24,064 nucleotides of DNA. It comes from a virus. The notes under the pieces are model-generated. The model was given only the letters and a program-made list of their open reading frames with translations, was not told where the DNA came from and ran no database searches. Of this stretch, positions 1 through 23,600 are shown piece by piece. The DNA lies in the IMG/VR virus record IMGVR_UViG_3300031787_005859, positions 1-24,064 of that record; one strand, 5' to 3'. The translations under genes were made by a program, and so were the position numbers. Positions within the stretch are counted from its first letter, which is position 1, and each line of letters starts with the position of its first letter.

Positions 1-3000
1 TAGGATCTCCACCTTGTTCAATAAGAGATTGCTTAAAGCTTTTTAATAATGATTTAAAGTTTGTAGAACCATCAGGATTTAAAACAGCTTTTCTTAATTC
101 ACCATATGTTCTAAATAACCTATCACCAAGAAGTTTTCTATATAGTTTTCTTAATGTACCAACACTGTATTCTTGATACTCTCCTTCTTTACCTTTAAGC
201 TTAACAAGAGTATTATCATTATGCTCAGAGTATATAAGCTGCATCATCTGAGTACCATGAATAATTTCAGTTTTCATGTTATCAGTAACAACTTGCTCTC
301 TAAAGAAGTCATTACTAACTACTACTGGTTTTAAAGGTTCATTCCATTTAGTAATATTTTGCTTATTAGTTTTAACTGCTGATGGAAAGATTATTATATC
401 AGTTTTAGTTTGCTCCATCTCATTAAGCTTATTATGTAAAGCAACTGATTTTGGATAAGGTTTATAATAACTTTGAATTGAAATTAACTTAGCATGATAC
501 TCATCTTTATCTTTAGTTTTTAAAAGATCATCCATTGCTTTTCTAAACTCAGGTAATTTAGATTCTTCTACATAACTAACTTCATTTCTATCAATTATGT
601 CTGTAGAAGTCTTACCATATATAAATGCATTAAACAATGATGTCTTTCTAGGATTAAGTAAAGCTCCATACTTATCTAAAGTATCTCTTTCTTTACCTGT
701 AAGTTCATACATCATTCTAATCTTTCTATATATTCTATCAATCTCAGGATTAACTTTAGAGAAAGTTTTTAAATAATTATTGTAATACCAATCTAAAGTA
801 CCATAACTTTGAGCATTAGTTCTTTCAATATTCTTATCAACTTTACCTGTAGCTGGATTAGTATAGTTAAAAAACTCATCTTCAACTATTGCTAATCTTA
901 AATCTCCAAAACCTAAAGCAGGTCCTGCAGCATTAGGTCCTGCATATCTTTTAAACAAGTCAACTGAATTTTTTAATCCAGTATTAATGTTTCCAAACAT
1001 TAAATTGTTAATAGTAGATGCATTAATCCAATTGTTAAAGAAAAAATCTTTAAGCTTGTTCATATCTACTTTACCATTAGGATCTATATAATCTTGTGGT
1101 AATGTAACTGAAACATAAGTTCCATCTTTTGATTTAGTAATAACATTAGTATCTAAAGAAGATAATTCATTTAAGAAGTTATTAAATGCAAGTGTTGCTG
1201 TTGTTTCTACTACTTTAGATAATTCTGGTATAGCTTCACCTTTAACTGCTGATTTTAAAAGAGACTCATATAATTCAGGAGAATATACTTTTAGAAGATC
1301 AAATTCTACAAATGATAGTGCTCTAAATTTAGACGCAACTTTTATAAAGTTAGGATCACTTGTATTTTTTAATATATCAATAACTTCTTGTTTTGAGTAA
1401 GATACATCATCAATCTTTACTCCATTGTTTTCATTGAAACCCTTTAAAGAACCTTCACCAGATAACATTCTTAAATATTCAGCTCTAATGTTATCTGCTT
1501 CAGTTTTAAACATCATTTCAAGATATTCTTTACCTAAGTCAGATACTGCTCCTGTATTGTCAACAAACTTTCTTTTAAGTACATTAAATGCATACTGAGT
1601 ATTTTTACCTTCATTTTGAAAGGCTACTAGTGAATATGTATCAAAGTTTTCTGTTCCTATAGTTATAGTTTTAGCTAAACTATTTCTATCTGTTTTAGCA
1701 AATAGGTTTAACATCATTATAAACTTACCTCTCTTATCAAGAGCAGCATATTGAGAAGCTTTAGAACCTTTATAGCTAACAGCATTACCATCATCATCCA
1801 TACTTTGCTGTTTAAGACCATCAAGTAAGTAGGCTGTTAAGTTTTTTAAATATGTTTCTCTTAACTCACCATTTAAATGTTTATCATTTAATATTGGATT
1901 GTTGTAAAGAGTTCTAAAGAAGTTTTCAATCAATTCAGTAGATTCAGGATTTTCTAAATATAAATTATTATTATTTAAGAAAGTTCTAAAACTATCTAAA
2001 CCTTCTTCAAAAGTGTCAGCATCAATAGCTGATAATAAAGCAGGATAGCTGTTTCTTATTTTTAATAGTAGTGTTGAAATGTAGTTTGGATATAAATGTA
2101 TATATACCATTTCATTATCTACATTTCTAATAGTAGAAGGTGATACTGATTCATCAAACATGGCATTACCACCAGCTATATCATTAATTCTACCTTTAGC
2201 ACCTAAAGCATCTTCTTCTTGTTCAGTAAGTTGTACTTTATTAGAAATAAATTTTTGTAATTCTTTTTTATTACTATAAGGGTCACCATCTACTGATATT
2301 GAATTTAATATACCTCTAACATTATCTTCTGTAATGTATTGTATATCTTTATAGATTTTAACTATTTCATTAAGAGATTTAAACTGAGATTCATCTTCTA
2401 TATTTAAATCTGGATATTTATCACTTATAATTTTAAATAATGATAACTGAATATATTTATCTGATAATGTTATACCTATTTCATTAAACTGACGTTTAAC
2501 ATCTGCAACAGCTTGATTGAAATTAGAAAATAAGTATTTAGCATTTGCATCAGTATCAGCAATAGTTTTTAATATTAAGTTTAATGTAGATACTACTTCA
2601 TCTTTTTTATTATCAAGATTTAATCTTTTCCAATTACCAAACCAAGTTTCTCTTTGAACTTTTCTAGCATCATTAACATTTGCAATAAACACTTTAGATT
2701 GACCTGTATCAGGATCTACTATATTTACTACAGATTCAAGTTTATGTTTTGTTAAACAAGCTGTAAACAAACAAAACTTACTAGAGTTTTTTAAATCATT
2801 TATTGACATTTCAGTAATGTCTTTTTCATAATTACCAACCATTGGTAAATCTAACTCTTTGTAAATGTCTTTAACTAATCTAGAGTAGAAAGCTTCCATT
2901 TGAGGTTGACCTTCTTTAATGTAATATAATTTTTTAAGAAGATCTTCTCTTTCAGTATTAACTAACATTCTTTCTAATGAATTGTAAAGTGTAATACCAT

Positions 3001-6000
3001 TTACATAATTAATATACTTAGGATCTGATTTTAAAATTTCTTCAGGTATACCAAAGTTAAATTCATCAATTGGCAACTCTGTAAACATTATATATCTTCT
3101 AAACTCTTTAGTAGTAGAAGACATGCCACCTACTCTTTGATTTGGTTTTTGTGCAAGTTCAGTTGGTGCATCATCTTCAAACTCTTCACTTTCAACATCA
3201 TAATCATCAAACTTAATAGTATCAATGTTCTGTCTTACAGTCTTAATAATTTTAGCAATGTTCTCTTCTCTTAATTGATCTGAAAGTTTTTTTATTGCTT
3301 CATTAGGTTCTGCAATACTTGATATACTTCTTATTATATTATATAATTGAACAGCATCTTGTTCTCTTGAATGTAAACCTGAACTATATCTTGAAAATTT
3401 ATCTTGTTGTATGATTTCTAGATATATTTGTTTATAGTCATTAGCAACAACATTAATTGCATCTAATATATCAGCATCAGTAACATAACCTTGGTTTTTA
3501 AGTTTCTGATAAGCTTTATAAAAAACTTTGTTTGTTAACCTTGTATTTAAATATGAGTCTTGATATTTAGCTATAGGTTTACCTGTATCATTAGATGATG
3601 CATATTTAAGTGATGAAAATACTGAAAGATTATCATCTATTATATCTAAAGGTTTAGCATTTTTAAACTGTCCACCCTTAATAGATTTAAACAGTGCATC
3701 TATTTCTGATAATGTTTCAGCATTACCATCTTTAAATAAGTTTACAATGCTTTTTAAAAGGTCTAATATTTTTTGTAAGAATGATTTTTCTTTAGGAAGT
3801 TCCTTGTCACCATTCATAATATCCATAAACTCATCAGCAAGTTTTTCTTCATACCATAAATTGGTAAGTTGTCTTAATGATAGTTTAGCATATTTATCAC
3901 TTAAAGATCTAAGTTGATCTAATTGCTCAGAAGTTGGTTTACCATATCTTGCAACTGCTTCTTGTAACACTTTAACTCTTTGAGCTTCTGTAAGAAGTGT
4001 TCTAAACACAGCATGAAATGCCTCATGGTACTCAACACCTTTAGGAACTTTTTTACCTAAATAGATTACAGCATTCTTAAATACACCATAAGTAATTGTG
4101 TTATTTGCTAATGCATCTACAAACTCATCTATAAACTTAACATTAATTGAATCAGGAAGTATTTGTTTTAATCTTTCTCTAACTTCTTCTAAGTTTACTT
4201 TTTCTGTACTTACAGTTTCATTGGTTGCAAAGTAAGGACTATCATCATAACCTTCATCATCTGGTGGTTCTTCATCTTTACGTCTTTCACCTGGTGGTTC
4301 AGGGTCTCCTCCAAATATAGATTTTGTTATATCATCTATACTTTGTGGTCCTGGTGGTGGTTCTTGTGGTTTCTCATCAGTTTCTTTTTTACCTTCTTTA
4401 CCTTCTTTCTTTTTAATTTCCTCATCAATGTTTTTTAACATGCGTTCATAAGGAACTTTGTTTTGAGCTTGAGCTGTAGAACTTAATTGCTCATAAGCAT
4501 CTTTAACAACAGACTTAAGTTCATTTAATCCATTTACACCAAGGTTACTAGCATTTTTTAAACTTATACGGAAACCATCTAATACTTTTGCAAATTTAGT
4601 TGCTTCATATTTTACTGGTTTACCATCAAAGAAGTAAGTTACTGTTGGATTTCTTAAAGGAGTAAAGTCATTAATTGCAGACTCTAACATGTTCTTATCA
4701 AAGTTTTGATTTATCCTTAATAGTTGAACAGGTTTTTTAACAAGCTTACCATCTACAATTTTATTTTGAAATAAGTTTGCACCAACTTTTTCAAAAAAGT
4801 TTTTTATCTCTTCACCGCTTTCTTCCTTTTTAAGATAAGCAGTTGTTTTATCTTTAATATAATTGTTTAAAGCACTTAAAAGATCAACATTATTTTTAAT
4901 TACTTTTTTATTGTATTCTAATACTGTAGAACCATTTGATAATCTTCTTAAGTTAAAACCTGAGTACTGAGTAGCTTTTTCATCAAACTTATCATCAGTA
5001 CTTGTTAAAGTAATTGTATCTACTTTTCCACTTTCACCTTTTTTAGTTCCAGGTGTATATATTTTTAAATTTAAAGCAGAACCATTTCTTTCAATAGATT
5101 TTTCACCACTACCTACTCCTGTTACAGATATTGAAAATTGTTTATCAGTTCCTTCAGATGTAAAGAATAAAAGCTCACCAGTATCCCAACCATTTACAGT
5201 TTGTTTTTCTTCACCTTCTTTTCTTCTAGCTTGTTCTTCTTTTACTTTATCACTTGTTTCAATTAATTTATCTATAATTAAATTAGATACATTAAAATCA
5301 GGATCTACTTCAGGTTGTTTTAAAGTAATACTTTTAACATGATCATTAAACTTGTATATAATTTTTAACTTACCTGGTGTAGAGTCTACGTCTTTTTTAG
5401 CTGCACCTGAATAAAAGTTTTCAATTAAACTTAAACTTAAAGCTGTATCTTCATTTAAACTTTTTAATTGTTTAGTATCAGGATTATACAAGTAGAAGTT
5501 AGCTTCGTTTTTTAAGTTGTAATATATTAATATACCTTTACCTTCTCCATTATATTTAGATAAGTCTGTTTGTAGTTTACCATCTTTTAATGAAGACCAT
5601 TCACTAAGTTTTTCTGTATTAGATTCTTCAAATCTAGATAGTCCTGTAAATATTGCTTTAACATCAAACAGTTGATCTACTTCAGCATTACTAAATTCTT
5701 TCTTACCTTCTTTTATTTGTTCTTTAATTTCATTAAAGGCATTAACACCTTGAACATAGTTATCTATAAATAACTTACCATCTCTTGTTACAATTTTATT
5801 ACCATCTTTATCTGTAGTTATAAAACTTGGATTTAAAAGTTCAAGATGATTTTCTGGTTCTTCAACATTAAAATCTACATAGTTACCATCTTCATCTTTA
5901 AATCTAAATCTATTAGGATCTAATATGTTACCTATGTGTACACCATCTGAAGGACCATCTTTGTAGTATATAGCTAAACCAAAGTTACTCATACCTACAA

Positions 6001-9333: not shown

Positions 9334-11166
9334 TTATTCATTAAGAAGTATCTCTGCTGCACCAGCTTGCGGTTCTTGATTTCTAGCAATAGCTAATTGA
9401 GCAGGTGTAATTTTACCATTGTTAGCATCAGCTTTTATATTCATACTACCAGCATCACTTTGTAAAAAATAAATTTCTTTACTTCCAGTTTGTTTTTTAA
9501 TATGAAAAGCTGTTTCTAAAATATCTTTAACACTACCACTTACTTTTTTAGCAACTTTACCATCTTCAGATATAATAGTAACTGTTCCACCTAAATAAGG
9601 TCCAAATTGATTTAATTCACTAATGTTTTGATATTTGCTATGATTATTTTTTCCACCAGATATTCTTAAAGTATGTTCTTGATTTTTAGCATCTCTAAAA
9701 GGAATTCCCTGATTTACAAAAGAATTTTTATAAGTTTTTAATTTAATTTTTTTCTGATCTGGTGTTATATCAAAATCTGAAAGTTTAGCATAGCTTTGTC
9801 TATATATTTTATTTTCATTAAAATCATTTTGAGTTAAATCTTTTACTGCTTTTATTTTAACTTTAAACTTACCATTACCTAAATTTTCTTTTACTTGAAC
9901 AAAAGGTTGATCTTTATAATCTTTAGATTTCCACCTATATTTTAAATTTTCTATTTGAGCATTAGCTTGAACATCGTAAACATTATCTGTAAAATCAAAA
10001 TCATATAAATAATCACTAATAGCTACTGCATTATTAACTTCTTTTCTTTTATCTTTTTTATCATTTCTAGGCTGATAAGTTACTGTTATACCTTCTGACA
10101 TATCTACCATTAATTTAGAATAACTTCCTAAATTTAAATTTTTATAAGATTTACCTCTGTAAACTTTTTCATTAACTTTTGAATAACCGATTGTTTTTGT
10201 AAAGTTATCATCTTCTATTTTTCTTTGTTTAATTTTAGGATCTTCAGTTGATTTTTTAGTTGGAGGTAATGATGTTGATTTTTTAAGTAAAGATGATTCA
10301 TTAGTATTTCTTACAAATTCTTGATCTTCAGTAGGATTACCATCAGCTGCGTCTTTTACTTTTCTTGTTTCTTCAATAGGAACATCACTTTCAAACATAT
10401 ATGTCCAAGCTTTTTCTAAAAAACTAGGATCTTTTGTTTCAGTAACTACTTTTTTAGGTTGAGCAGGTGTATTTGATTTAGGATTTTTATTAATAGGATA
10501 TGGTGATGCTCTAAATGTAGGATTAGGATTTAATTGAGGTTTAGGAGCTAATACTTGAGGTTGATAATTAGTTTTAGGTTGTTTAGGTGTTGTTTCAGCT
10601 GGAACAGTTTTTAATTTTTCTTTAAAATTAAATATTCTTGATGATACAAATGGATTAGGAACAGTTGAATCAGGACCTCCTACTGGTCTTACATAAGGAT
10701 GATTTGAATCACCGTATGCCATTATTTCATCAGCTTTAGCTTGACCATATTGTTTAAATAAACTAATGTATTGTTCAGCACCTTTAGGTCCTAAAAAATG
10801 AACTAAATCTGTTATTTCTTCTACTGAAGCATTTATCTTAAATTGATCTATTAATTTACCTGCAGTTGTTACATTTTTAGAAGTTAATTTATTTTGAACA
10901 ACTTCTTGTGCTTGTGCATTATTAGCATATAAATTAGCAATTTCTTCATCAGATTTATTAGTAACATTTATACCAATATCTTGTAAAGATTGTTTAATAT
11001 CATTTTTATTATATTTATAATAATGTTGATATTTTCCAATAGCCCATTGGTCTGCAGGTTTTAATTTACCATCTTTAGTTTTATTATTAATAACAGTATA
11101 ATTATTACTAGATTCTACGGAAGCAATTGCATTATTAATTCTATTTACTGTGGGGCTGGAAACCAC
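9334..11166 (-). CDS. Lysozyme/transglycosylase-like virion protein, GTG start or frameshift product
   Basis: 610 residues if started at GTG 11166; ends at TAA 9336-9334. The N-terminus resembles phage muralytic domains: a helix with ASVESSNNY (E18 a candidate catalytic acid), then AIGKYQ at 42-47, like the G-x-Y-Q turn of transglycosylases, and FLGPKGAEQYI further on. Residues ~180-300 form a Pro/Lys/Thr/Asn-rich linker; the C-terminal half is charged, probably beta-rich, and not recognised. Its likely job is local peptidoglycan cutting during genome delivery. The start is uncertain: the frame has no ATG before residue ~150, which would remove the enzyme-like domain. GTG 11166 is the only usual start codon near the overlap, and it lies within the 3' end of the upstream gene and in a foldable segment. 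The frame is open upstream to the TAA at 11244-11242, so production by -1 frameshifting from the 775-residue gene is a real alternative. A sequencing indel in an A7 run is also possible. Confidence 0.85.
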   Translation of the reverse strand: MVSSPTVNRINNAIASVESSNNYTVINNKTKDGKLKPADQWAIGKYQHYYKYNKNDIKQSLQDIGINVTNKSDEEIANLYANNAQAQEVVQNKLTSKNVTTAGKLIDQFKINASVEEITDLVHFLGPKGAEQYISLFKQYGQAKADEIMAYGDSNHPYVRPVGGPDSTVPNPFVSSRIFNFKEKLKTVPAETTPKQPKTNYQPQVLAPKPQLNPNPTFRASPYPINKNPKSNTPAQPKKVVTETKDPSFLEKAWTYMFESDVPIEETRKVKDAADGNPTEDQEFVRNTNESSLLKKSTSLPPTKKSTEDPKIKQRKIEDDNFTKTIGYSKVNEKVYRGKSYKNLNLGSYSKLMVDMSEGITVTYQPRNDKKDKRKEVNNAVAISDYLYDFDFTDNVYDVQANAQIENLKYRWKSKDYKDQPFVQVKENLGNGKFKVKIKAVKDLTQNDFNENKIYRQSYAKLSDFDITPDQKKIKLKTYKNSFVNQGIPFRDAKNQEHTLRISGGKNNHSKYQNISELNQFGPYLGGTVTIISEDGKVAKKVSGSVKDILETAFHIKKQTGSKEIYFLQSDAGSMNIKADANNGKITPAQLAIARNQEPQAGAAEILLNE

Positions 11167-13472
11167 CCCAGATCTCTGCCCTGAGTCTGAGGATTTTGCT
11201 TTCCCACAGGAGAATAATTTTCTTTTTTTAATGCTTGTTCTTTAATTTTAGTTTCTATATTTTCTTTTTGTGAATTATACCATCTTTTTAATTCAGTAGC
11301 TCCTTTATAATCTTGTAAAGGTAGTTTATTAAGTTTATCTTGATAATCAAAATTTAATTGATCTATCAAAAGTGTTTTTATATAATCTAACTCTTGTAAT
11401 TGAGAACTAACTTTATTAGATGCTTCTACAAAGATGTCACCTAAATTATTTGTGTATTGAGTGTTAACTCCATCTAAACTATATTCATATCTAAATGTAG
11501 GATTATCTTTTGCTAAATCTTTAAATGTCGCATCAAAATTAAATGTTTTATCTCCTATATTAAATGATCCTTTTGTATTACCACTTCTTTGTAATGATTT
11601 AGATATTTGTTGCCAGAATCTCATTTGAGCTTTTAGAATAGGATATTCATCTGTTGCTAATTTATCAAGATTAGTTTCTGAAAGGTCAAACTGATAATAA
11701 TTACCATTAAACGCAAAAACACCTACAACACCATCATCAGGATCATATCCTATTTTTAAACTAGAAGCTTTGGTATCAAAATTACCTTTATCATCACGAG
11801 GAATACTTTTTACAAATTTTGTTAAACCATCACCTTCAGAAGCATCTTTATTTGTTACAAGATCTTTTATTTTTAATCCTCCTTGTGATGCATTTTGTAA
11901 TAATGTCATTTCTATATTATCAAATCTTTCATCATAAGGTAAGTCTGCTAATTGTATTTTAGACATCTTATTTTTAAGATTATTAAATGCTTTATATACT
12001 TTAGCTTCTGGTGTATTTTTATATTTATCATCATTTAATCTTTTTTGCATTTCTTTTTGAATATCTTCTTCAGATACAGGTTTACCTCCAGCATCTTTAA
12101 ATGATGTAAGTTCTTCTTCTACATTCTTTCTTAAATCTGTAATTATTTGAGCATTAAACTCATTAGGTTTTATATTTAAATCTGCTGCAATTTTATTAAT
12201 GAGATTTTCTCTAGTGTTTGAGGCATACCTCATTTCTTCAAAATTTGTTAATGCATCACTTATTTCAGGAGTAATGGCTGGAGCATTACTTCCTGGTTTT
12301 AAAATCCATTGACCATATTCATTTTTAGCATAGTTATTATATATTTGATCACTAACTATTTTTCTATTATTCCAATTATTAGAAGTTACAGTATTTGCTG
12401 GTATGATTCCTGTTAATTGTGCAATATTATTTGTTGCAACCTGAACTTCATTGTTAGCATAATTTTTATCATTTATTAATGCATCAAAAGAACCTATTTC
12501 ATCTTCAGCATAAACACCTTTTTGTATTGCTGGTATACCTACAGTTTTACCTTGAAGTGTAGTTGTTAAACCTGATAATACTTCTTTTTTCTTAGTTTGA
12601 TCTCCATCACCTCCGTCTCCTCCAGGTTTAGTAGGTTTAGGAGGAGTTATTTCTGGTATATTATGAAAAGATCTATCTTTTGTTATTTTTTGATAACCTA
12701 ATAAATTACTTATAGGAATTGCAACATCAGTATCCCATTTTTCAGCTTTATATTCTTGAGGCTTATAATTAGTTGTTGACCAAAAATACCCTTGATTTTC
12801 AGGAGATTGTCTCCAACTAGAATATCTATCATTTACATATTTACGAACTTCTTTATCAGCTACTTGTTCTACTGTTACAGCATCTGTTTGTAAAATTCCA
12901 TATTTATTTGGATTGGTTTTAATATCTTCTATAACATTAGCTTTAAATTTTTCAGCTTCAGGTAATATTGATTTTACAGGATCTGTAAATTGCATTGGAG
13001 AATAATATGCAGCAGAAGTCATTTCACCTGGGTCTAATTGAGCTCTTGGTGTACCATCAGGTCCATATAATCCTGCAAATATTTTATCAGTATATTTACC
13101 TTCTTGTAAAGCTTGATTATATCTTTGAGTTAAAGCATAATCTTCCATTATGTTTTTAACTTCAGGATCAGCAGCAAGATTTGCAGTAAATTTAGATAAC
13201 TCTGGAGCAGCCATTGAAACATTACCTGTATTAACAAGAGTATCTCTAATCTTTTCTATTTGAGGTAAATACTGTTGTTTAACTCTATCATAAGCATCTT
13301 TAGTTAACATGCCAGGAGTTATCTTCAAAAAGTTTTCAGCAGCTTTATCAATAGCAGCATTTTGTAAATCAAACTCTTTTTGTTTAGTTTCAAGTTGTTT
13401 ATAAATAAAATCTAAAGGTAAATCAACTTGTGTTTTTACATAAGGACTTGGTGTATATTCAAATAATCTCAT
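11145..13472 (-). CDS. Probable crAss-like virion cargo/structural protein, 775 aa
   Basis: ATG at 13472, 19 nt after the upstream stop; ends at TAA 11147-11145. An out-of-frame ATG sits 5 nt upstream of the start. No enzyme motif is recognised. The N-terminal ~190 residues are helical, begin with an aromatic/Pro-rich segment (FEYTPSPYVKTQVDLPLDFI) and contain DPEVKNIMEDY, a pattern I associate with structural proteins of Bacteroidota phages. A Pro/Gly/Asp linker at ~274-291 separates this from a long charged helical middle and a C-terminal part. It lies between two muralytic-type proteins and next to giant cargo-like genes, so a cargo or internal-virion role is inferred. The last ~22 codons are much more GC-rich than the rest and encode an odd tail ending in GWFPAPQ. 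The coding end overlaps the next gene by 22 nt and carries a possible -1 frameshift signal at codons 749-750. Confidence 0.88.
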   Translation of the reverse strand: MRLFEYTPSPYVKTQVDLPLDFIYKQLETKQKEFDLQNAAIDKAAENFLKITPGMLTKDAYDRVKQQYLPQIEKIRDTLVNTGNVSMAAPELSKFTANLAADPEVKNIMEDYALTQRYNQALQEGKYTDKIFAGLYGPDGTPRAQLDPGEMTSAAYYSPMQFTDPVKSILPEAEKFKANVIEDIKTNPNKYGILQTDAVTVEQVADKEVRKYVNDRYSSWRQSPENQGYFWSTTNYKPQEYKAEKWDTDVAIPISNLLGYQKITKDRSFHNIPEITPPKPTKPGGDGGDGDQTKKKEVLSGLTTTLQGKTVGIPAIQKGVYAEDEIGSFDALINDKNYANNEVQVATNNIAQLTGIIPANTVTSNNWNNRKIVSDQIYNNYAKNEYGQWILKPGSNAPAITPEISDALTNFEEMRYASNTRENLINKIAADLNIKPNEFNAQIITDLRKNVEEELTSFKDAGGKPVSEEDIQKEMQKRLNDDKYKNTPEAKVYKAFNNLKNKMSKIQLADLPYDERFDNIEMTLLQNASQGGLKIKDLVTNKDASEGDGLTKFVKSIPRDDKGNFDTKASSLKIGYDPDDGVVGVFAFNGNYYQFDLSETNLDKLATDEYPILKAQMRFWQQISKSLQRSGNTKGSFNIGDKTFNFDATFKDLAKDNPTFRYEYSLDGVNTQYTNNLGDIFVEASNKVSSQLQELDYIKTLLIDQLNFDYQDKLNKLPLQDYKGATELKRWYNSQKENIETKIKEQALKKENYSPVGKQNPQTQGRDLGWFPAPQ
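11148..11231 (-). promoter_or_regulatory. Candidate -1 ribosomal frameshift signal: A_AAA_AAA plus GC-rich stem
   Basis: In the 775-residue frame the codons TTA AAA AAA GAA (11231-11220) form the slippery heptamer A_AAA_AAA. Thirteen nt later a GC-rich segment begins (11209-11148; 35 of 62 nt are G or C). Its ends pair perfectly over 7 bp (CTGTGGG, 11209-11203, with CCCACAG, 11154-11148). An inner 7-bp stem with one G-U pair can form between CCTCAGA (11192-11186) and TCTGGGG (11172-11166). The outer stem ends directly before the zero-frame TAA. After a -1 slip the next codon is AGA at 11223-11221 and the frame stays open into the 610-residue protein, giving 750+629=1379 residues. The 13-nt spacer is longer than the usual 5-9 nt. 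The folding was done by eye. Confidence 0.45.
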
Positions 13473-13491: not shown

Positions 13492-16400
13492 TTAAGCAGA
13501 TAGTGGATTACCTTGTTCATCATACATTTTACCATCAGGTGAAACATATACATCTTTTCCTCCAATGCTTGTTTTATAACTTCTTGTATTCATTCTATTT
13601 CTAGCAATCCATTCTTGTAAATATCTTTGTCTTTCTTCAGTAGCAGCACTTGCTAATTTATCAGTAGCACCTTGTGCACCTTTAAATACATAAGTCATTG
13701 CATTCTGATAATTTTGTTCATTTAGAGCATCTGTTTCTCTATTAGCACCAAACTGAGCCATTCCTGTTTGTTGTGCTAATTGAGCATTTGTATTTTTTTC
13801 TCTCATAATACTTTCTTCAATTCTTCCTGCAAGATCTTTATTAGATTGTAAGAAACCTTCTCTAAGAAGATTTCCAAACATTCTATTTCCTGAGTTTTTT
13901 ATTCTATCTGCAAAAGTATCAAATCTTCTTCTACTTTCTTCTCTATCAATTATTCTTTCTGGTTCATAATTAACAGTTTGAGCACCTAATTTTCTATAAG
14001 GTAATTTTCTTTTAGCTAAATTTGTAAGAGCATATATTGATGCAGCAAGATCTGGTAGTCCTTGACCATATCTAGCTGCTTTAGAATACCAAGGTTCTTC
14101 ATACCAAGGTTCATCTGGTGATGGAGATTTTGGAGGTTTTGACCGTTTGTAAGGTAAATTTTGACCATAAGTTCCTTCTAATATATCTCCTTCAACAGGA
14201 TTTTCAATTGTTGCATATGGATTAGGATTCATGCTTCTTCCAGGAAATGGCTCATAAAGTGGTGTAGGATATATAGGTTCTTCTTTAATAGTTAATTTAG
14301 GTTTTGTATTATTATTTGGTAATTTAAATGATTTAGGTTCTATTCTATCAATTAAAGGAGGTCTATTATCAATTGCATACTGAGTAGTCATTTCAGACAT
14401 ATCATCATATAATGGACTAGAATTTTCATAATCAGTAGCCATTTGTTGACCAATATTATACATAATAGGATACATAGAATCAGTGACTGGACCACCTCCT
14501 TGATACATATTACCTCCTTCAGCTAACATAGGTTGTACCATAGGTTGATATACATATCCTCCATTAGCATAATCCATTAACATACCACCTCTATTTTGTG
14601 CAGCTACTTCAAATGGTTGTTGTACATTAGATACCATTGGACCTCCTGCTGCATATCTTGACAATCCTTTTATTTTAGGAAGATAATCATTAATATTAGG
14701 ATTTGGATTTGAACCTTGATAGTTCATAACTGGTTTTCCATCTGGCTGATTTTGTCCAGTATTATAAAAGAAATTTTCAGTTGGAGTCATATAAGAATAA
14801 GTAGTATCACGTTTTAACCCATTGTCATATTCATTTATAATTCTAGTACCTTGTTCAGTAAAAGGTAAATTATTACCAGCACCAGCAGTTATTATATTTC
14901 TAGAACCTTGATTAATATTACTTCTTGAAGCAATTGGTAAAGACCATTGATCTGGTGGATCTGTTGGACCTCCTTCAGCATGTTTCCAACCAGCAGCATT
15001 TCTAGCAAAGTTAGCTTTCTTAACCATTGCTGCTGAGTAATTACCTTTATTAGCTAATACTTGTCTTGCAAACTCTTGAACGGACATACCTCTTTTTTTA
15101 GCTGCAGCAGTAAATGTGCCTCTTTTAGATTTTTTAATATGAATGCTACCACCTTTAGCATAAGAGTTAGGCATATTTAAATCTTTAACAATTCTTCCAC
15201 CATAAGCATAGTAATTATCTGCTTCAACATAGTTTTGAATATCATTACTTAAAATTCTTTCAAGATCGTTATTTAACTTACCACCAGCTGCAGCAATTTG
15301 TAAAGCACCATTAACCATCATTTGATTTTGTTGTTCTTCAGCTTGTGCTTTAGCTCTAGCTACTTCAGTTTCCATTATAGAATTTTGTTTAAGTTGTTCA
15401 ATTGTTTCAGCAGAATATGAATCATTAGGTCTTCTTAATTGTTTTTTTACAAATGAATTATTTGATAAACCTGATAACGTATATTTATTTAATCTTTTTT
15501 CAAGTTTTTCAGCCATTGTATTACCAAGCTCATCTGTTTGAGTATTCATACCATCTACCTCATCTGATACAACATAATTACCATCAATTACAAACTCTCC
15601 ACCTTCTGCCATAGCATTTTGTCCAATAGGTACTCCACCATAAGCATTTTCATGATGGTAACCTGCAGAGTCAGGAATTTTATTTATTCCAAATTGATTA
15701 AATGAACCACCTTGTTTATAATCTTTATATCTGTTTTTCATAGAGTATGGGTTTTGCAAAGTTACTAAATTATTTATATCACCACCAGTTGCTGCAAAAT
15801 TTAAATTAGGACTAGTTGGTGTTATAAAGTTGTTAGTATATCTGTTCATATATTCTTCACTTTGACCTTCACCTATTCTTTTATTTTCTAAATCTTTTAA
15901 TCTTGTTTTAGTTTTACCTGTAACAGCATTCCACATATTACCAACATTAGATAATGCTGTTCCAACTATGGGTATATTTCCTACAGTTTCATCTGCACTA
16001 AAAGCTATTTTTTGTTCTTCTTCATCTAAATCTAAAAATTTAGATGCTTGTTTTTTCATAACATTATTTGTAGCTTTATTTATTTGATCTGCTGTTTGAG
16101 CTAAAGCCATTATTGTCATAGGATCCATAGACGTTGATTTATTAGATGTTGTTTGTTTAGAAGGAAAAAATTGTCCTTCTGAAACAGAAGGCATTTTACT
16201 TGTTTCATAAGTTTTAGTTATAGGATTATATCCTGAAGAATCATATCCTGAAGAATTATAAGGTCCACCTGCATAATACATGTATGGATTGATAGGACCA
16301 CCTTGTGCTTTAACAGTATTAACTATATTTACAATATTAGGATTTTGTTTTAAAACTGAATCAGCAATATTTTGAATTTTTTCACCATATAAAGGAGTTT

Positions 16401-19400
16401 TAGACATGTTTATACCTTCTTTAGGTATTGGAACACCATATATAGATTTCATTTTAAAACCATGATATTTTTTTTCAGTTTCAGGAGTAATTGTTCCTAA
16501 ACCATTATATGCTTGAATTAAATGTTTTGTATCTTTATAACCTAATTTTTTAGCATAATCCATTTTATCTTTTAATGTAGAAACTAAATTTCTTTCAGCA
16601 TTAGAATCTTCATTAAGAAGATCCATTACATGACCAATGTTACTATCTGTTTTACCAAGTTGTGTTTCTTGTAATCCTACAGCTAATGCTAAATAAGGAT
16701 CTACATCATATTCTTTAGAATATTTAACTAAATTGTTAATTACACTTGTATCATATTCTCCTGATAATAAATCTCTAGTTGGTTTTATTTTAGTTTTTGT
16801 AACAGGATTATATACTCTTTTATCAATAATTTTAGTAGGAGGCAAAGGTATTCTTGAAACATACCTATTAAAATCTTCAATAACTTCTTGAGGTAAAAGT
16901 TTAGTATTTACTGAAGTAGTAGATACAACTGCTTTTTGTTTACCTGGATTTATGTCACCACCATCTTGATATAAATAACCACCTTTAGCTGCATATTGTT
17001 CATAAGGAGATTGTTGTTTATTACTTGCTAATGTATTTAATATTTTAGATAATACTTCATTATTATAATATCTAAATAAATGATTATTATAACCTGATTT
17101 TTTTATTTCTTGTAATCTTTCTGGAGTAATTATTTCACCTGGTTTAAACTTCTGATCAAATCTTAATTGCATTAAAAATGGATAAAGTTCTTCTCTTTCA
17201 AGTTCATTTATTACACTATTATCTTCTGGTGTAGGAAATTTAGCCATCATTATTTTAGCTAATGGTTTTTTACCGTCTTTAGTTTCAATTTCATATGTAT
17301 GACCACCTTCATGTGTTACTATTGATAATGGATCATATTTATCAGTTGCATTAACATCAGGATTTAAAACAATTATATTACCTTCAGGATCAGTAAATCC
17401 TTGAGGATTTTTTTTCATGCTTTTAAGAACTTCTTCTTTATATTTAGGATTTAAATTTGCTATATACTTATTAATTAATTCTTGATTAATTACAGGATCT
17501 GGATTATATAAAACTTTAGTGTTTGCTATAGATTTTTCAAAACCAGGTATTTTATGTTCAATATTATATATATTTCTTTCACTAAGTATTTGAGGTAAAT
17601 CATCAGGATCATATTTAATTTTATCTATAACACTAGGTAATGCAGGAAAAAGTTCATCAAACCTTCTTATAGTTTCATCACTATTCATCCAAGTAGTATA
17701 AAAATCAGCTACAGGTTTAGAAAATTCTTTTCCAATATTTGAACTAGATTTAAAAACATCATCTTCACTATTATTAACAGATCCACCTTTTGCAAATGTA
17801 AATTCAGATTCTTTATTAAATAAATCTCCAACATTTTTAATTAATCTACTAGGATGTATTTCTCTTTTAAATCTATTAATTACAGGTTTGTTTTTAGGAT
17901 CTCTTAACCAATCATATCCTTTTTTACTAAGATAAGCTGTTCCTGCTGTTAAAACTAATGGAGCAAATGTATTAATAGCATTTTCTATATGTGCACCAAC
18001 ATCTTTTTTACTCCCACTAATAAACATTTGTCTTTCAGCTGGAGTTAATTTATCCCAATTATTTTTAATATAATTAAGTGATGGATTAGTTTTAAAATCA
18101 TCATAACCCATTCCAGGTATATCAATAAATCCTCTTCTAAATCCAAAAGGCAATGTTCTTTCTCCATAATTATATACTTTTGGAAAAGTACCACCTCCTT
18201 GCATTTTCATAGGTGTTTCATGTATCATTTGACCAGGAAATTGATATTCATTATTTGGATACATTATTTGACCATAACCTGTTTCATCTTCTCCATATAC
18301 AGGATAAGGAACACCTTGCATAGTAATTTGACCTGTAGGTGATGGTACTATTGTACGTTTACCAGGATGAGCCCATTGACCACGAGGATCTATTATTGCA
18401 CCACCATCTGCATACATGTAACCACCTTTAGCATAACCTTTAAACAATCCATTTCCTGGACCTTGTGTAGGAAAATAACCACCTTCTGCTTTTAAAATCA
18501 TATTATATCCAGGATTACCTTCTCTTTCTAAATCTTGTTGATAATAATCTCTATAATCTTGATTTGTAAGACCATCTGAATTTATACCGTAAAATTCATA
18601 TCTACCATTATCTAAATGAATATACTGAGCATCTTTATTTTGTTTTAAAAATCTATTTACTTTATCAACTCCTTTTTTTCCACTTGATATATAATTAAAT
18701 TCTGATTTTTTTGTAGACGGAGAATACAAAATAAATTTACCTGTATTAGGAGTGTTTTGATAAATAGGATTTCCTTGGTTATCTAATAATCTCATTGCTC
18801 CTTCATTTAATACAGCTTTATTAATATTAGTTGCACCAAACCTTCTTGGTACTATTTCAGTATTAGAATTAAAATCTGAAGCTTTTCCTACTTTAAATTT
18901 ACCATCTTCTATACCATAAAAAGATTGTATAGTTTTAGATGGATATTCTTTATCAGAATATGTATCTGTAGCAGACAACCAATCTTTAGCCTTTCTTACA
19001 GTATTATTAGTATTTTCTATAAACTCTCCTCCTAATATCATTTGACCATCTGCAGTTTGATTAACTTTTGCAAAATCCATATTTCTATTAGTTAAATCTA
19101 TAGTTGTATCCCTAGAACTTAAACTTCCAGGTGTACTAGTTATTCCTGCAGAATTTAATACTTTATTTTTTACAGCAGGAGGACTAAATGCTAAACCCAT
19201 TATTCCAGCATATCCAGGATATGCAGTTCCAGCTAATCCTGCAATTGTATAATCAGCAGCTCCCCAATTTCTACCTCCATATAATATAGGATTTATTCTA
19301 TTTCTATTACCAGTTGCAATAGCTTCTTCTAAAGCCTCTTCTGCATAATTAGGTAAAGTCCAAGAATCTCCATATTTATTTTTTACTTCTAAATGTTCTT

Positions 19401-20607
19401 GTACACTTTGTTTATAATAATCTGAATTTTTAAATGCTTTTATTTCTTCTTGAGTTAATTTACCTTTAGGGTATTTTTGTAAAGCTCCTTTAGTATTAAA
19501 AAATCCCATTTGTTGTGGAGCAACATTACTAGAACTAGATAGTTTTTTAGGTGTAGCTTTAAATCCTCCAATAGGATTAACAACTTCTGCTGCAAGCTTA
19601 CCTACTTTACCTAAAGCTGTAGTTGCTTTAAAAGGTAAACTTGCAGGTAATAATGCAGACTCTACAGGTACATACTCTAATGGTTTTTCTCCTAGAAGCT
19701 TTCTAAACCCTTCACTATCATAGTCTGGACTATCTGTACTAATCTCTACTTCAGGCAATTGATGTTTAATCATACCTTTTGTAGTAGGCTTACCATTAAT
19801 ATCAAACTCAACTTCTTGCCAAGTTTTGTTATCTGGACTTACTAAAGCAGTTTTAATTTCTCCAGTAGCTGAGTTATACCAAGATCTTTCTGATAACTTT
19901 TTACTTTCAGGTTGCATTATTTTTACAATCTTATCTTTTGTTCCACCTCCATTAGCATACATATATCCACCTTTAGCTTTTTGTTGTTCTAAAGTTTTTA
20001 AAAAGTTTTCTTCTGAAGTAAATTCACCAGATCTTTCATAATTTCTTGCTTCACCTTCTAATGTTGTTGGATCATTATAAAGATTTTCATTAACTGCTTT
20101 ATCAAAAACAACTTCATCAGGAACAAATTGAAATTCAGAATCTTTTTTAAATTTATCAATACCTCTAAAAGATTCATTTATTTTTCTATTATGATACCCA
20201 TAAAATTCATCATCAGTAGTTGGCATTGCTGGTTTTTTATATGGAACATCATAAGGTAATTCTGTACTATAACCATCATTAAACTGAAAAGCATGATAAT
20301 TTTCATGAGCTAGTATTTTAGATTTCCAATAATCATCTAAATCATTATAATCTTGTCCTAAGTATATTGTATTAGTTCTAGGATCATATTCACTATTAAT
20401 GTAATTAGGATTTATTTCAACTTTAGCATCAATAGGATTACCATATCTATCTGTTTTAACAGGACCTCCATCTTGATACTTCTTAGCTTTAATCTTTTTT
20501 TCTTGCCTAAGCATTTCTGTAGTAGGTTTCTTAGGTGTAGCACCAGTTCTTCTGTTCTGTTCAGCTTTTTTTCTGATATTTTTCCAAAGTGAATTTTTTT
20601 CAGCCAT
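13492..20607 (-). CDS. Giant modular cargo-type protein: two zincin modules, SLT-like module, Gly-Gly motif repeats
   Basis: 2371 residues; ATG 20607 is only 2 nt after the stop of the muzzle-like gene, so translation is probably coupled; ends at TAA 13494-13492. Modules in order: basic N-terminus (1-45); zincin-like module 1 (~60-195) with HENYH 101-105 and a candidate third ligand in LEGEAR (183-188); a long unrecognised part (~225-705) with a Gly/Ala-rich hydrophobic stretch near 450; zincin-like module 2 with HEGGH 1099-1103; a transglycosylase-like module (~1290-1400) with LQETQLG (E1314) and AYNG (Y1367); a basic 56-residue module (1821-1876); a Pro-rich region; and a helical C-terminus (~2150-2371). 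Short motifs of the AKGGYMYADGG type recur at most module boundaries. Its place after the muzzle matches a crAss-like cargo protein, delivered through the tail; that role is inferred. It could also be processed into separate enzymes. Confidence 0.88.
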   Translation of the reverse strand: MAEKNSLWKNIRKKAEQNRRTGATPKKPTTEMLRQEKKIKAKKYQDGGPVKTDRYGNPIDAKVEINPNYINSEYDPRTNTIYLGQDYNDLDDYWKSKILAHENYHAFQFNDGYSTELPYDVPYKKPAMPTTDDEFYGYHNRKINESFRGIDKFKKDSEFQFVPDEVVFDKAVNENLYNDPTTLEGEARNYERSGEFTSEENFLKTLEQQKAKGGYMYANGGGTKDKIVKIMQPESKKLSERSWYNSATGEIKTALVSPDNKTWQEVEFDINGKPTTKGMIKHQLPEVEISTDSPDYDSEGFRKLLGEKPLEYVPVESALLPASLPFKATTALGKVGKLAAEVVNPIGGFKATPKKLSSSSNVAPQQMGFFNTKGALQKYPKGKLTQEEIKAFKNSDYYKQSVQEHLEVKNKYGDSWTLPNYAEEALEEAIATGNRNRINPILYGGRNWGAADYTIAGLAGTAYPGYAGIMGLAFSPPAVKNKVLNSAGITSTPGSLSSRDTTIDLTNRNMDFAKVNQTADGQMILGGEFIENTNNTVRKAKDWLSATDTYSDKEYPSKTIQSFYGIEDGKFKVGKASDFNSNTEIVPRRFGATNINKAVLNEGAMRLLDNQGNPIYQNTPNTGKFILYSPSTKKSEFNYISSGKKGVDKVNRFLKQNKDAQYIHLDNGRYEFYGINSDGLTNQDYRDYYQQDLEREGNPGYNMILKAEGGYFPTQGPGNGLFKGYAKGGYMYADGGAIIDPRGQWAHPGKRTIVPSPTGQITMQGVPYPVYGEDETGYGQIMYPNNEYQFPGQMIHETPMKMQGGGTFPKVYNYGERTLPFGFRRGFIDIPGMGYDDFKTNPSLNYIKNNWDKLTPAERQMFISGSKKDVGAHIENAINTFAPLVLTAGTAYLSKKGYDWLRDPKNKPVINRFKREIHPSRLIKNVGDLFNKESEFTFAKGGSVNNSEDDVFKSSSNIGKEFSKPVADFYTTWMNSDETIRRFDELFPALPSVIDKIKYDPDDLPQILSERNIYNIEHKIPGFEKSIANTKVLYNPDPVINQELINKYIANLNPKYKEEVLKSMKKNPQGFTDPEGNIIVLNPDVNATDKYDPLSIVTHEGGHTYEIETKDGKKPLAKIMMAKFPTPEDNSVINELEREELYPFLMQLRFDQKFKPGEIITPERLQEIKKSGYNNHLFRYYNNEVLSKILNTLASNKQQSPYEQYAAKGGYLYQDGGDINPGKQKAVVSTTSVNTKLLPQEVIEDFNRYVSRIPLPPTKIIDKRVYNPVTKTKIKPTRDLLSGEYDTSVINNLVKYSKEYDVDPYLALAVGLQETQLGKTDSNIGHVMDLLNEDSNAERNLVSTLKDKMDYAKKLGYKDTKHLIQAYNGLGTITPETEKKYHGFKMKSIYGVPIPKEGINMSKTPLYGEKIQNIADSVLKQNPNIVNIVNTVKAQGGPINPYMYYAGGPYNSSGYDSSGYNPITKTYETSKMPSVSEGQFFPSKQTTSNKSTSMDPMTIMALAQTADQINKATNNVMKKQASKFLDLDEEEQKIAFSADETVGNIPIVGTALSNVGNMWNAVTGKTKTRLKDLENKRIGEGQSEEYMNRYTNNFITPTSPNLNFAATGGDINNLVTLQNPYSMKNRYKDYKQGGSFNQFGINKIPDSAGYHHENAYGGVPIGQNAMAEGGEFVIDGNYVVSDEVDGMNTQTDELGNTMAEKLEKRLNKYTLSGLSNNSFVKKQLRRPNDSYSAETIEQLKQNSIMETEVARAKAQAEEQQNQMMVNGALQIAAAGGKLNNDLERILSNDIQNYVEADNYYAYGGRIVKDLNMPNSYAKGGSIHIKKSKRGTFTAAAKKRGMSVQEFARQVLANKGNYSAAMVKKANFARNAAGWKHAEGGPTDPPDQWSLPIASRSNINQGSRNIITAGAGNNLPFTEQGTRIINEYDNGLKRDTTYSYMTPTENFFYNTGQNQPDGKPVMNYQGSNPNPNINDYLPKIKGLSRYAAGGPMVSNVQQPFEVAAQNRGGMLMDYANGGYVYQPMVQPMLAEGGNMYQGGGPVTDSMYPIMYNIGQQMATDYENSSPLYDDMSEMTTQYAIDNRPPLIDRIEPKSFKLPNNNTKPKLTIKEEPIYPTPLYEPFPGRSMNPNPYATIENPVEGDILEGTYGQNLPYKRSKPPKSPSPDEPWYEEPWYSKAARYGQGLPDLAASIYALTNLAKRKLPYRKLGAQTVNYEPERIIDREESRRRFDTFADRIKNSGNRMFGNLLREGFLQSNKDLAGRIEESIMREKNTNAQLAQQTGMAQFGANRETDALNEQNYQNAMTYVFKGAQGATDKLASAATEERQRYLQEWIARNRMNTRSYKTSIGGKDVYVSPDGKMYDEQGNPLSA
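14086..14115 (-). repeat. 15-bp tandem repeat, two copies
   Basis: Two adjacent 15-bp units (14086-14100 and 14101-14115) differ at one base, and code for a repeated (D/E)EPWY pentapeptide in the Pro-rich part of the 2371-residue protein. This is likely a recent in-frame duplication in a linker. Confidence 0.85.
14980..15147 (-). other. Basic 56-residue module inside the 2371-aa protein
   Basis: Residues 1821-1876 begin SIHIKKSKRGTFTAAAKKRG and continue through SVQEFARQVLANK and KKANFARNAAGWKH. The block is lysine/arginine-rich, helical and bounded by GG motifs on both sides (AKGG before, AEGG after). I recall similar short blocks in unrelated phage proteins, which suggests a mobile module; a nucleic-acid-binding role is only a guess from the charge. 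Confidence 0.55.
16228..16257 (-). repeat. 15-bp tandem repeat, two copies
   Basis: Two adjacent 15-bp units (16228-16242 and 16243-16257) differ at the last base, and encode SSGYD/SSGYN-type repeats directly after a GG motif of the 2371-residue protein. This is an in-frame duplication within a flexible linker. Confidence 0.85.
16408..16740 (-). other. Lytic-transglycosylase-like (SLT) module inside the 2371-aa protein
   Basis: Residues ~1290-1400 read as a goose-lysozyme/SLT fold. YDVDPYLALAVGLQETQLG has the helix-Glu pattern in which E1314 would be the catalytic acid. The AYNG motif at 1366-1369 matches the conserved Tyr-Asn-Gly region of the family. It lies between two GG motifs (~1209 and ~1436). 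It would cut peptidoglycan during genome entry; activity is inferred from the pattern. Confidence 0.6.
17299..17313 (-). other. HExxH zincin-like motif 2 (HEGGH) in the 2371-aa protein
   Basis: H1099-E-G-G-H1103 is in frame, preceded by LSIVT and followed by TYEIE, the usual setting of a zincin active-site helix. Glu residues in NELEREELYPF some 40 residues later could supply the third ligand. The module lies between GG motifs at ~940 and ~1209. The sequence around it is unlike module 1, so it is not a simple duplication. Confidence 0.6.
20293..20307 (-). other. HExxH zincin-like motif 1 (HENYH) in the 2371-aa protein
   Basis: H101-E-N-Y-H105 follows DDYWKSKILA, a helix lead-in typical of zincins. 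LEGEAR at 183-188, about 80 residues on, gives a plausible third zinc ligand (E184 or E186). The module sits at the N-terminus, between the first GG motif (~47) and the second (~213). Confidence 0.6.
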
Positions 20608-20609
20608 AA

Positions 20610-23600
20610 TTATCTAGGTAGTATTTTACTTCTTAATGAGTATTCAGTTATTACATCATGCAATCTAAATAAATTATTAGATACATCAAGGTATTTAAAT
20701 GTAACATCAAGATATTTATCAGAAAATCTTGGTTTAATAGTTAAGTTAGGATTAGTTTCATCTCTTGGTATTTGTAATCTCCAACTTCTAATCTTTTGCT
20801 CAAAGCTAACATTTGATAATGGATATGTTTGATAATCATTAGATAATTGCATTTGAGTAACTGTTGATGGTAATTGAACACCTAAAGGTGATATTACTTC
20901 AGTATTTAATTGAAAGTTATCAAATGTTTTAACAAAATCTGATTTATCATTTACTCTAAATTTAATTTCTGAAGAATATGGAGTATTATAAAATATATTT
21001 CTATTACCTATATTATGTATATAAACTCTATCATTAGCTGAACTTATTGTAGGTTCAAACAATATAGATAGAAATCTTTTTCTCATATTAATATATAATG
21101 ATGGATAAAAGTCATAAAAAGATTCAAATGCTTCTAATGCTTCATTATATGATATAGTTTGTTTTATACCATTAGAAGTATCAAAGAATGTAAAATATAT
21201 AGAATTGTATTCTGAATTATATCCTGATGTTATACCTACTCTTGAAATTCTTGTAAGTTTATCTAATGATTTTAAATTACTATTAACAAATGCAGTTCTA
21301 AAAAATCCACTAAGACCTTCTATATCTGTTATAGGTGCTGCACCACTATCTAATGAAAACTTAAATAATTTATTAATAAAAGCATCATAATGATAAATTG
21401 CTGAACCTGTTTTTTCAACAGCAAATGAATGTTTACTACCTGTTTCAGTAGATATATAATCAAACCTTTGAAGTAAAGTACCTGTACCTAATTGAGTTTG
21501 TGTAGTATCACCTTCATTAGTAAGTACTCTTTCATCAACAGATGCTATACCAAAACCATCATTTTGATAATAATATAGTTTATCTTTAAACTCTATTAGT
21601 CTATTTATCTCACCATAATTACCATTAACACCTAATGCATTGTTTACTAGTATTGATCTCCATGCATCTAATCTTTCACCATCTAATTTAGGTTCTGAAC
21701 CATATATAGTATGAGGTTCATATTTTATATTAGTTTGTAAATAAGCTTTTGATATAAATACATTAGTAGTATTTTGTTGAGAATATGCTGGATTGTATAT
21801 ATAACTTGCTGCAAATATACTATCACTCCCGCTTGGTTGATTTAATCTAACAGAAGCATGTTGTTCTTTAGTATTTAATTCTGTATTAAAGAAAGATTCT
21901 GCAGGATAAAATACTCCAACAGCTGTATTATTATCATTATTAGGAGCAGCATCCCATCCTGAACCTTGTTTATAATTAACATTAGATCTTTGATAATCAA
22001 ATAAATTTACATAAGTATCTCCACCCCATACACCATTAATAACTAATCCTGTTACAGTATCTTTATCATAAGGCATAAAATGATTAGTAAGTATATATTC
22101 ATTAGAATATCTTGCTGCTCTAGTATCACCTCCATATTGTTTAGTTAAAAATCTTTCATATGATACTAAATATAATCCTAAATAAATTTCATTATTATTT
22201 TCAGAACTTTCAAAAACATTAAATGTATCAGGATGTCCTACAGTAAGTAATGTATTTGCTGCCCAAGGAAAATATTGATTAGTATTATCAAAAGCTACTA
22301 AATCACATTCTCCACCCCATTCTCCATATTCACTAGTATTTATATCTGCATATAATGCAGAAGTCATATTTCTAAAAGAAACAACAGGACTAGTTTGTTG
22401 ATTTATTGCAGCAGCAGGAACTGAATTTTGATTTGTTGAATAATTTACAAATACTTTGTCTAATATTGGAAATTTATAATTAGCAGCTGTTTGACTTTGA
22501 TTAATTATAATAGCTGCATCAGTGTATTGATAATTATATTCATTAGGTTTAACATAATAACCATTCCAATTTGCAGCACCTGTCCATATTGCAGGATTAT
22601 TTATTTTTATCCCATAATTAGGTCTAACACTAATAAAAGTAGTTCTTGCTAAAAATCTAATATAATCTCCTGGTTGAAAATCACCTGCTGCTCTTGTATA
22701 AAAATTAGGAGCATTAAATGTTTGTAATGCTATTATATATTTACTTGGAGAAATTGGATTTCCACCACTATCTTGTTCATAACACCATCTTAAATTAATA
22801 TTATTGTTATCGTTTTTAAAAGGTATTAAGTTTGCATAAGTAAATCCATTATCTGCTAATGTAGGTTGAATGTAACCTGTACCTAATCTTGAAGAATTAT
22901 TCAAATCTCTTTTTAATCTTACATAAGACCATCCTGTTATTTGATCTTTAATTGCTTGAAATTGTGCAGTTGATGTATCTAATGTAAATTCAATACCTAT
23001 TTGTTTTGTAATTATATCATGAAATAATGTACTTGAATCAGAATCATATTTTGTAAGACCATATGTTAATGAAGAACTATCTTGATCTGAAGCAAATGGA
23101 AATTTAATATCTCCTATCCATAATGGATAAGAAGGAAATCCTTTTTTATCATAAAATACAATACCAAATCTATATACTTCACCTCTTGCATATCCTACAA
23201 ATAATGTTTCAAATAAAGAACTTTTATGAGTATCTAATGATTGACCATTACCACCTGGATAAATATATGTATCATTAAATTCTCCTGTATATGCTGAATT
23301 ATAATCAGGTAATGGTCTAATATAAGGTGAATCTGTAGGAAGATAATTACCTCCTGATTGTACAACTGAATCTTCTGTTGTAAATCTATATGATATATTT
23401 AATCCTGAACCACCTAGTGTAGCACCATCTAATTGATATCTATATTGATCATTAGCTAAAAACTTTTCTAACCAACCTCCAATACTAGGATTAGTAGAAT
23501 CTAATCCATTAAATGGATTTAAAGCAGGATCTAAGTTTTCATTATTAAATGGGTTTATTAAATCATATGTTTCAGGTATTTGATCTAATGTATTTCCAGA

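Follow-up and report, generated by a model that had tools for sequence, protein, structure and literature searches.

The analyzed stretch of DNA, below called the window (24,064 nucleotides, or 24 kb), is a fragment of a crAss-like phage genome. Every large gene is located on the minus strand, and the gene set comprises a muzzle protein, a 2371-aa protein, an open reading frame (ORF) of 775 aa (positions 11145–13472), an ORF of 610 aa (from a GTG at 11166 to 9334), and an ORF of 3100 aa. A profile search matched the muzzle protein with PF25731 (E 6e-103). The 2371-aa protein exhibited a weak match to CARG1 (cargo protein 1; E 3e-5, 24.6 bits), with a score just under the curated cut-off of 27. 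The muzzle protein and the CARG1 domain are thus encoded side by side, as in the Crassvirales virion module. In crAss001 the cargo proteins 1 (gp45) and 2 (gp46) come after the muzzle and are packed in the virion, and their ejection is expected (PMC10172136). As the 775-aa ORF follows the CARG1-bearing gene, it probably encodes a second cargo protein. An initial annotation of this DNA, made from the sequence alone, had already called it a cargo protein. The gene order speaks for this assignment, while homology to a proven cargo protein was not detectable; a profile comparison with crAss001 gave no significant match to gp46, so that the agreement is one of position.

The 775-aa ORF ends with a TAA codon at 11147–11145. 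The -1 frame is open for 635 codons (9334–11241), with a stop codon just before 11241, and contains the 610-aa ORF. The initial annotation had proposed that a programmed -1 frameshift at an A_AAA_AAA heptamer fuses the 775- and 610-residue proteins. Several elements that it had named were indeed seen, i.e., an in-phase A7 run at 11229–11223, a -1 frame that is open from 11241 onward, and a GTG codon in this frame at 11166–11164. In addition, the segment 3′ of the A7 run is GC-rich and foldable in the window (about -25.9 kcal/mol, z -2.3). Another heptamer, G_GGA_AAG (11205–11199, within the codons GTG GGA AAG at 11207–11199), sits 24 nt downstream of the A7 run and 51 nt ahead of the zero-frame stop. 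It is also in phase, and GGGAAAG occurs only once in the 24-kb window, at this junction. The GC content from G_GGA_AAG to the zero-frame stop is 54%; the upstream gene has 28% and the downstream gene 26%. This base composition suggested a 59-nt GC-rich insertion, either a bypass of the T4 gene 60 type or a mobile element; this was rejected because the segment is also present in relatives, where it includes an in-phase heptamer that is conserved and a stem that covaries.

Relatives with the same gene position were collected from IMG/VR with protein and profile searches, in which both halves were used as queries at first and the muzzle protein later. Together with the window, this yielded eight junction genomes, the other seven being G001 (L002), G002 (L003), G003 (L005/L051), G004 (L006/L052), G005 (L021), G008 (L046), and G009 (L047). 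A DNA pattern search added a ninth genome, L053. All sequences compared are metagenome assemblies. The N-terminal part of the 775-aa protein has homologs in 12 genomes. The upstream proteins of the nine junction genomes are down to about 20% identical and form two groups, between which the identity is about 20–30% over parts of the protein only. The heptamer was retained in all nine genomes as an in-phase X_XXY_YYZ sequence (GGGAAAG, or GGGAAAA in G003), and it is invariably followed by a spacer of exactly 6 nt (CAAAAT at 11198–11193 in the window). The upstream ORF ends 36–51 nt past the heptamer (36–45 nt in the relatives), and 9/9 genomes have a long -1 frame that opens at the heptamer or before it. 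In the relatives this frame is open across the overlap and conserved downstream. The comparison of relatives for a conserved heptamer, stem and overlap, which had been put forward as a check, was therefore positive, at G_GGA_AAG.

The spacer is followed by a predicted 9-bp hairpin on the minus strand, in which the 5′ arm CCTCAGACT (11192–11184) pairs with the 3′ arm GATCTGGGG (11174–11166). It was recovered unaided by RNAalifold on a MAFFT alignment of eight genomes, in which both-sided compensatory changes were found at 9/9 base pairs and 92% of the cells are paired. Versions of the stem that were slid along the alignment reached at most 56.5% pairing. In a hand alignment of the eight genomes, with all letters checked against the DNA, 66 of 72 cells pair, and with the addition of L053 this number becomes 74 of 81. 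None of 500 shuffles reached the observed pairing, and when the 3′ arms of eight genomes were rearranged, only 4 of 40,320 combinations, including the true one, paired equally well; as the nine genomes share ancestry and their independence is limited, these counts are not true probabilities. Both arms have changed wholesale while the pairing was kept in G005 (CCTCAAACC/GGTTTGGGG) and in G004 (GAGTGGAG/CTCCACTC). The 3′ arm ends one codon short of the zero-frame stop, and the window has 15 extra nt at this place. The hairpin is modest, with about -6 to -21 kcal/mol across the genomes, and it is imperfect in G001. An Rfam search gave no match. The outer stem CTGTGGG/CCCCACAG of the window fold was set aside, because it overlaps the slippery site and is specific for the window.

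The distance of 6 nt lies within the range of 5–9 nt for a 3′ stimulatory structure, and the order of heptamer, 5–9 nt spacer and stem is the geometry of bacterial -1 frameshift sites. A long spacer had been regarded as an objection; it appeared long because it had been measured from the A7 run. The density of comparable heptamers was also determined. Among some 45,000 codon positions in these loci, 441 in-phase X_XXY_YYZ heptamers of any kind were found, i.e., about one per 100 codons. Being so common, a lone A7 run carries little weight. In-phase G_GGA_AAR, on the other hand, was found only twice outside of the junctions in the same set of codon positions and was present at every junction examined (the junction of G004 lies outside the counted stretch, and its heptamer was seen separately). 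In Escherichia coli G_GGA_AAG is highly shift-prone (PMC5009743), and GGGAAAG has been predicted as the frameshift signal of a podophage capsid gene (PMC7881722). It was assumed that the shift-proneness of GGGAAAG can be carried over from E. coli to the ribosomes of the phage's host.

Signal, phase, geometry, covariation, and intact -1 frames were all seen by comparison, and they make it very probable that a programmed -1 ribosomal frameshift at G_GGA_AAG joins both ORFs to a product of about 1379 aa. The fusion of the two proteins that had been proposed is thereby supported by the heptamer, the stem and the overlap that the relatives have kept; the place of the slip is another one. Ribosomes that translate the 775-aa gene would reach GTG GGA AAG and would be stalled by the mRNA hairpin that starts 6 nt past the heptamer. 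A fraction of them would slip back by one base and read GGA-AAG a second time, now as GGG-AAA. The majority would go on to the TAA at 11147–11145 and produce the 775-aa protein, while the slipped fraction would read the -1 frame from 11199 to 9334 and produce the fusion protein, with a probably cell wall-degrading domain and a tail at its C-terminus. We infer that the slippage takes place in the host with some efficiency. The position of the shift is narrowed down by the -1 frame itself. Its stop codon lies immediately before the heptamer in G005, at a distance of 3–6 nt in three more genomes, and at 15–36 nt in the others. With a stop so close to the heptamer, the shift would have to occur at or after this site, if the domain is continuous with the upstream protein.

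Alternatively, the downstream ORF could be a separate gene. Its translation would start at the GTG at 11166, or ribosomes would terminate and reinitiate near the TAA, and the role of the hairpin would be limited to controlling this start. Overlapping genes are common in phages, and an equivalent GTG exists in G009. However, in four genomes the 197 nt that begin with the heptamer are free of ATG, GTG and TTG, and G008 has a single nearby candidate, the TTG at +87. In the -1 frame, ATG first occurs 198–798 nt past the heptamer, and the positions of GTG and TTG are not shared among the genomes, so that no start codon is conserved. The GTG of the window borders the stem, where the 3′ arm ends, and a start site requires neither an in-phase GGGAAAG nor a fixed 6-nt spacer. 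A separate gene is thus very unlikely. Slippage at the A7 run, by the ribosome or by RNA polymerase, seems slightly less probable still. Runs of A are slippery, this one is in phase, and the -1 frame is open at its position in the window. However, the run is absent from the equivalent position in the other eight genomes, the -1 frame is closed by a stop ahead of this position in 7/9 genomes, heptamers of the general class are frequent, and the spacing of the covarying hairpin fits GGGAAAG and not A7. In the genome of the window, the run could at most be a secondary site; transcriptional slippage at A7 was rejected due to the lack of conservation. An indel from sequencing or assembly, or a decaying gene, might be suspected in a metagenome contig with a homopolymer nearby, yet the same break in the same direction with the same signal in nine genomes, with both frames intact in all of them, refutes this in practice, and the independent relatives have removed the worry about an indel that had been raised at the outset.

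A DNA pattern was also built from the heptamer, the spacer, the ends of the stem and the stop, and 2.9 million viral contigs were scanned with it. Only six matches were retrieved, and all belong to this gene family, four of them known and two on new contigs. One of the latter is L057, which belongs to the G005 phage and is a contig of its own; its junction is identical to that of L021, which speaks against an error of assembly. In 257 Gb of prokaryote genomes, this pattern yielded seven matches; none has a comparable pair of long ORFs, and they are chance matches. A protein search of the GTDB genomes revealed no relatives, and a phage collection searched with each half contained no protein relatives of either. 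The signal was absent after the muzzle gene of six named crAss-like phages. Three distant homologs of the upstream gene (L045, L048, L049) have neither the signal nor the extension, and the contig of a fourth (L050) is cut short. At the end of the first ORF of L049 (G013) no frameshift signal was found, and the next ORF is an ordinary overlapping neighbor; thus signal and extension were apparently acquired jointly, as far as the distribution among these sequences indicates.

The extension begins with a probable lysozyme/transglycosylase-like domain (10642–11154), which is followed by a C-terminal tail (9334–10641). A muralytic domain had been part of the initial proposal. This is well founded for one relative, as the -1 product of G004 carries an M23 peptidase (Peptidase_M23 profile PF01551, E 6e-29), and it is probable for the window. 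The domain of the window is shared with G002, G003, G005, G008, G009, and L053, and is characterized by a conserved Glu and the motif A-x-G-[KRQ]-Y-Q-H. It had no Pfam match and no PHROG function match. AlphaFold models of this domain type had pLDDT values of 75 and 85, and the fold matches were weak. In a first fold search the phiKZ transglycosylase gp144 was the best match (E 0.11), with the phi6 lysin also leading, and the search with the second model led to T4 lysozyme entries with E above 1. From these alignments and models a lysozyme/transglycosylase-like fold is predicted, with reserve. The composition of the -1 products varies. In G003, G005, and G008 the product consists of the domain alone (about 190 aa), while that of G001 carries only a tail and no recognizable enzyme. 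The -1 products of the window and G002 are about 50% identical, although the upstream proteins share only 20–25%, and L053 combines an enzyme of the window type (49%) with a tail of the G004 type (76%). Judged from these identities, the enzyme and tail modules are shuffled between genomes. The C-terminal part of the -1 product of L047 (G009; 2284–3414) contains the motifs HGDHIHIS and HSVNSHH and has no Pfam match; it seems to be a second enzyme-like segment, resembling M15-type peptidases.

The 775-aa protein and its extension of about 620 aa adjoin the muzzle protein and CARG1 of a crAss-like phage, and both forms may be packaged as virion cargo. In the likeliest scenario most cargo copies would be plain and a fraction would carry a wall-opening domain, which would open the peptidoglycan during ejection of genome and proteins, and the slip would set how many copies carry the enzyme. 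This predicted role as an ejection enzyme is favored with moderate confidence. It is less likely, though a serious alternative, that the extension is made by frameshifting and has another task, e.g., as an assembly, host-attachment or late-lysis domain. This would agree with the lack of a profile match for the domain of the window type, with the tail-only product of G001, and with the tails, which are large and have no assigned function. The M23 peptidase in G004, the conserved Glu with A-x-G-[KR]-Y-Q-H, the phage lysozyme and transglycosylase structures among the top fold matches, and the cargo gene order speak against it. It is tempting to speculate that the frameshift cassette serves as a fixed docking site, at which different wall-degrading and tail modules are swapped behind one recoding signal on an ejected cargo protein, and that translation, not transcription, sets the enzyme-bearing share of the few copies; the chances for this wider view appear evenly balanced.

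G_GGA_AAG is the frameshift site of the tail chaperone G/GT of phage lambda, which has relatives in dsDNA phages. There, ribosomes shift by -1 at a low rate close to where the upstream gene ends, which likewise leads to a C-terminally extended minority product. In contrast to lambda G/GT, the protein extended here is large, probably a cargo protein, and encoded behind the muzzle and CARG1 genes; its extension resembles an enzyme and is interchangeable, and the slippery site is followed by a covarying hairpin. Two small ORFs before a tape measure gene of a long-tailed phage, the hallmark of tail assembly chaperones, were not found at this locus. The same site is used in g-t of HCTV-5, and gpG and gpGT of lambda are assembly chaperones that do not become part of the virion (PMC5009743). 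Slippage also gives rise to a longer minority variant of a structural protein in T7 gene 10B and in the minor capsid proteins of Privateer and phiEco32, and the signal predicted for Privateer is likewise GGGAAAG (PMC7881722). These extensions are on an abundant capsid protein, however, and none of them is described as a peptidoglycan-cutting domain on an internal protein in the literature examined. The gp45/gp46 genes of crAss001 occupy the same slot in the gene order, between the muzzle and the large RNA polymerase-type genes, but a frameshift is not mentioned (PMC10172136).

The ejection proteins of podophages, of the T7 gp16 type, are virion-associated lysozymes or transglycosylases. They resemble the fusion protein in the likely role, the local opening of peptidoglycan during ejection. 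They differ in that the enzyme domain is present in every copy, whereas here only the frameshifted fraction would carry it. A literature search on frameshifting in crAss-like phages retrieved no report of its use on a cargo protein, an absence that is not proof; one paper notes frameshifts in the RNA polymerase genes of zeta-group phages and leaves them unexplained. The mechanism is thus of a known kind, and its use on a crAss-like cargo protein appears to be new. crAss-like phages are among the most abundant viruses, and the question addressed is how a large protein cargo passes through the cell wall. A directly testable answer would be that a conserved recoding signal determines how much of the cargo bears an enzyme. 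Annotation pipelines would miss the fusion, because the halves resemble separate genes and the second is often devoid of a start codon, and the DNA signature offers a means to find further cases.

Two additional features of the window were observed. Positions 14638–24064, which include the muzzle gene and most of the CARG1 gene, are 99.9% identical to L021 (IMGVR 3300020564_000007) over 9.4 kb. Past this stretch the similarity breaks off sharply, and the large downstream ORF has 43% amino acid identity; the abrupt divergence reflects either an exchange of modules that took place recently or the chimeric assembly of one of the two contigs. In addition, the gene for the 2371-aa protein contains three imperfect 58-nt repeats (16949–19994) at a spacing of about 1.5 kb.
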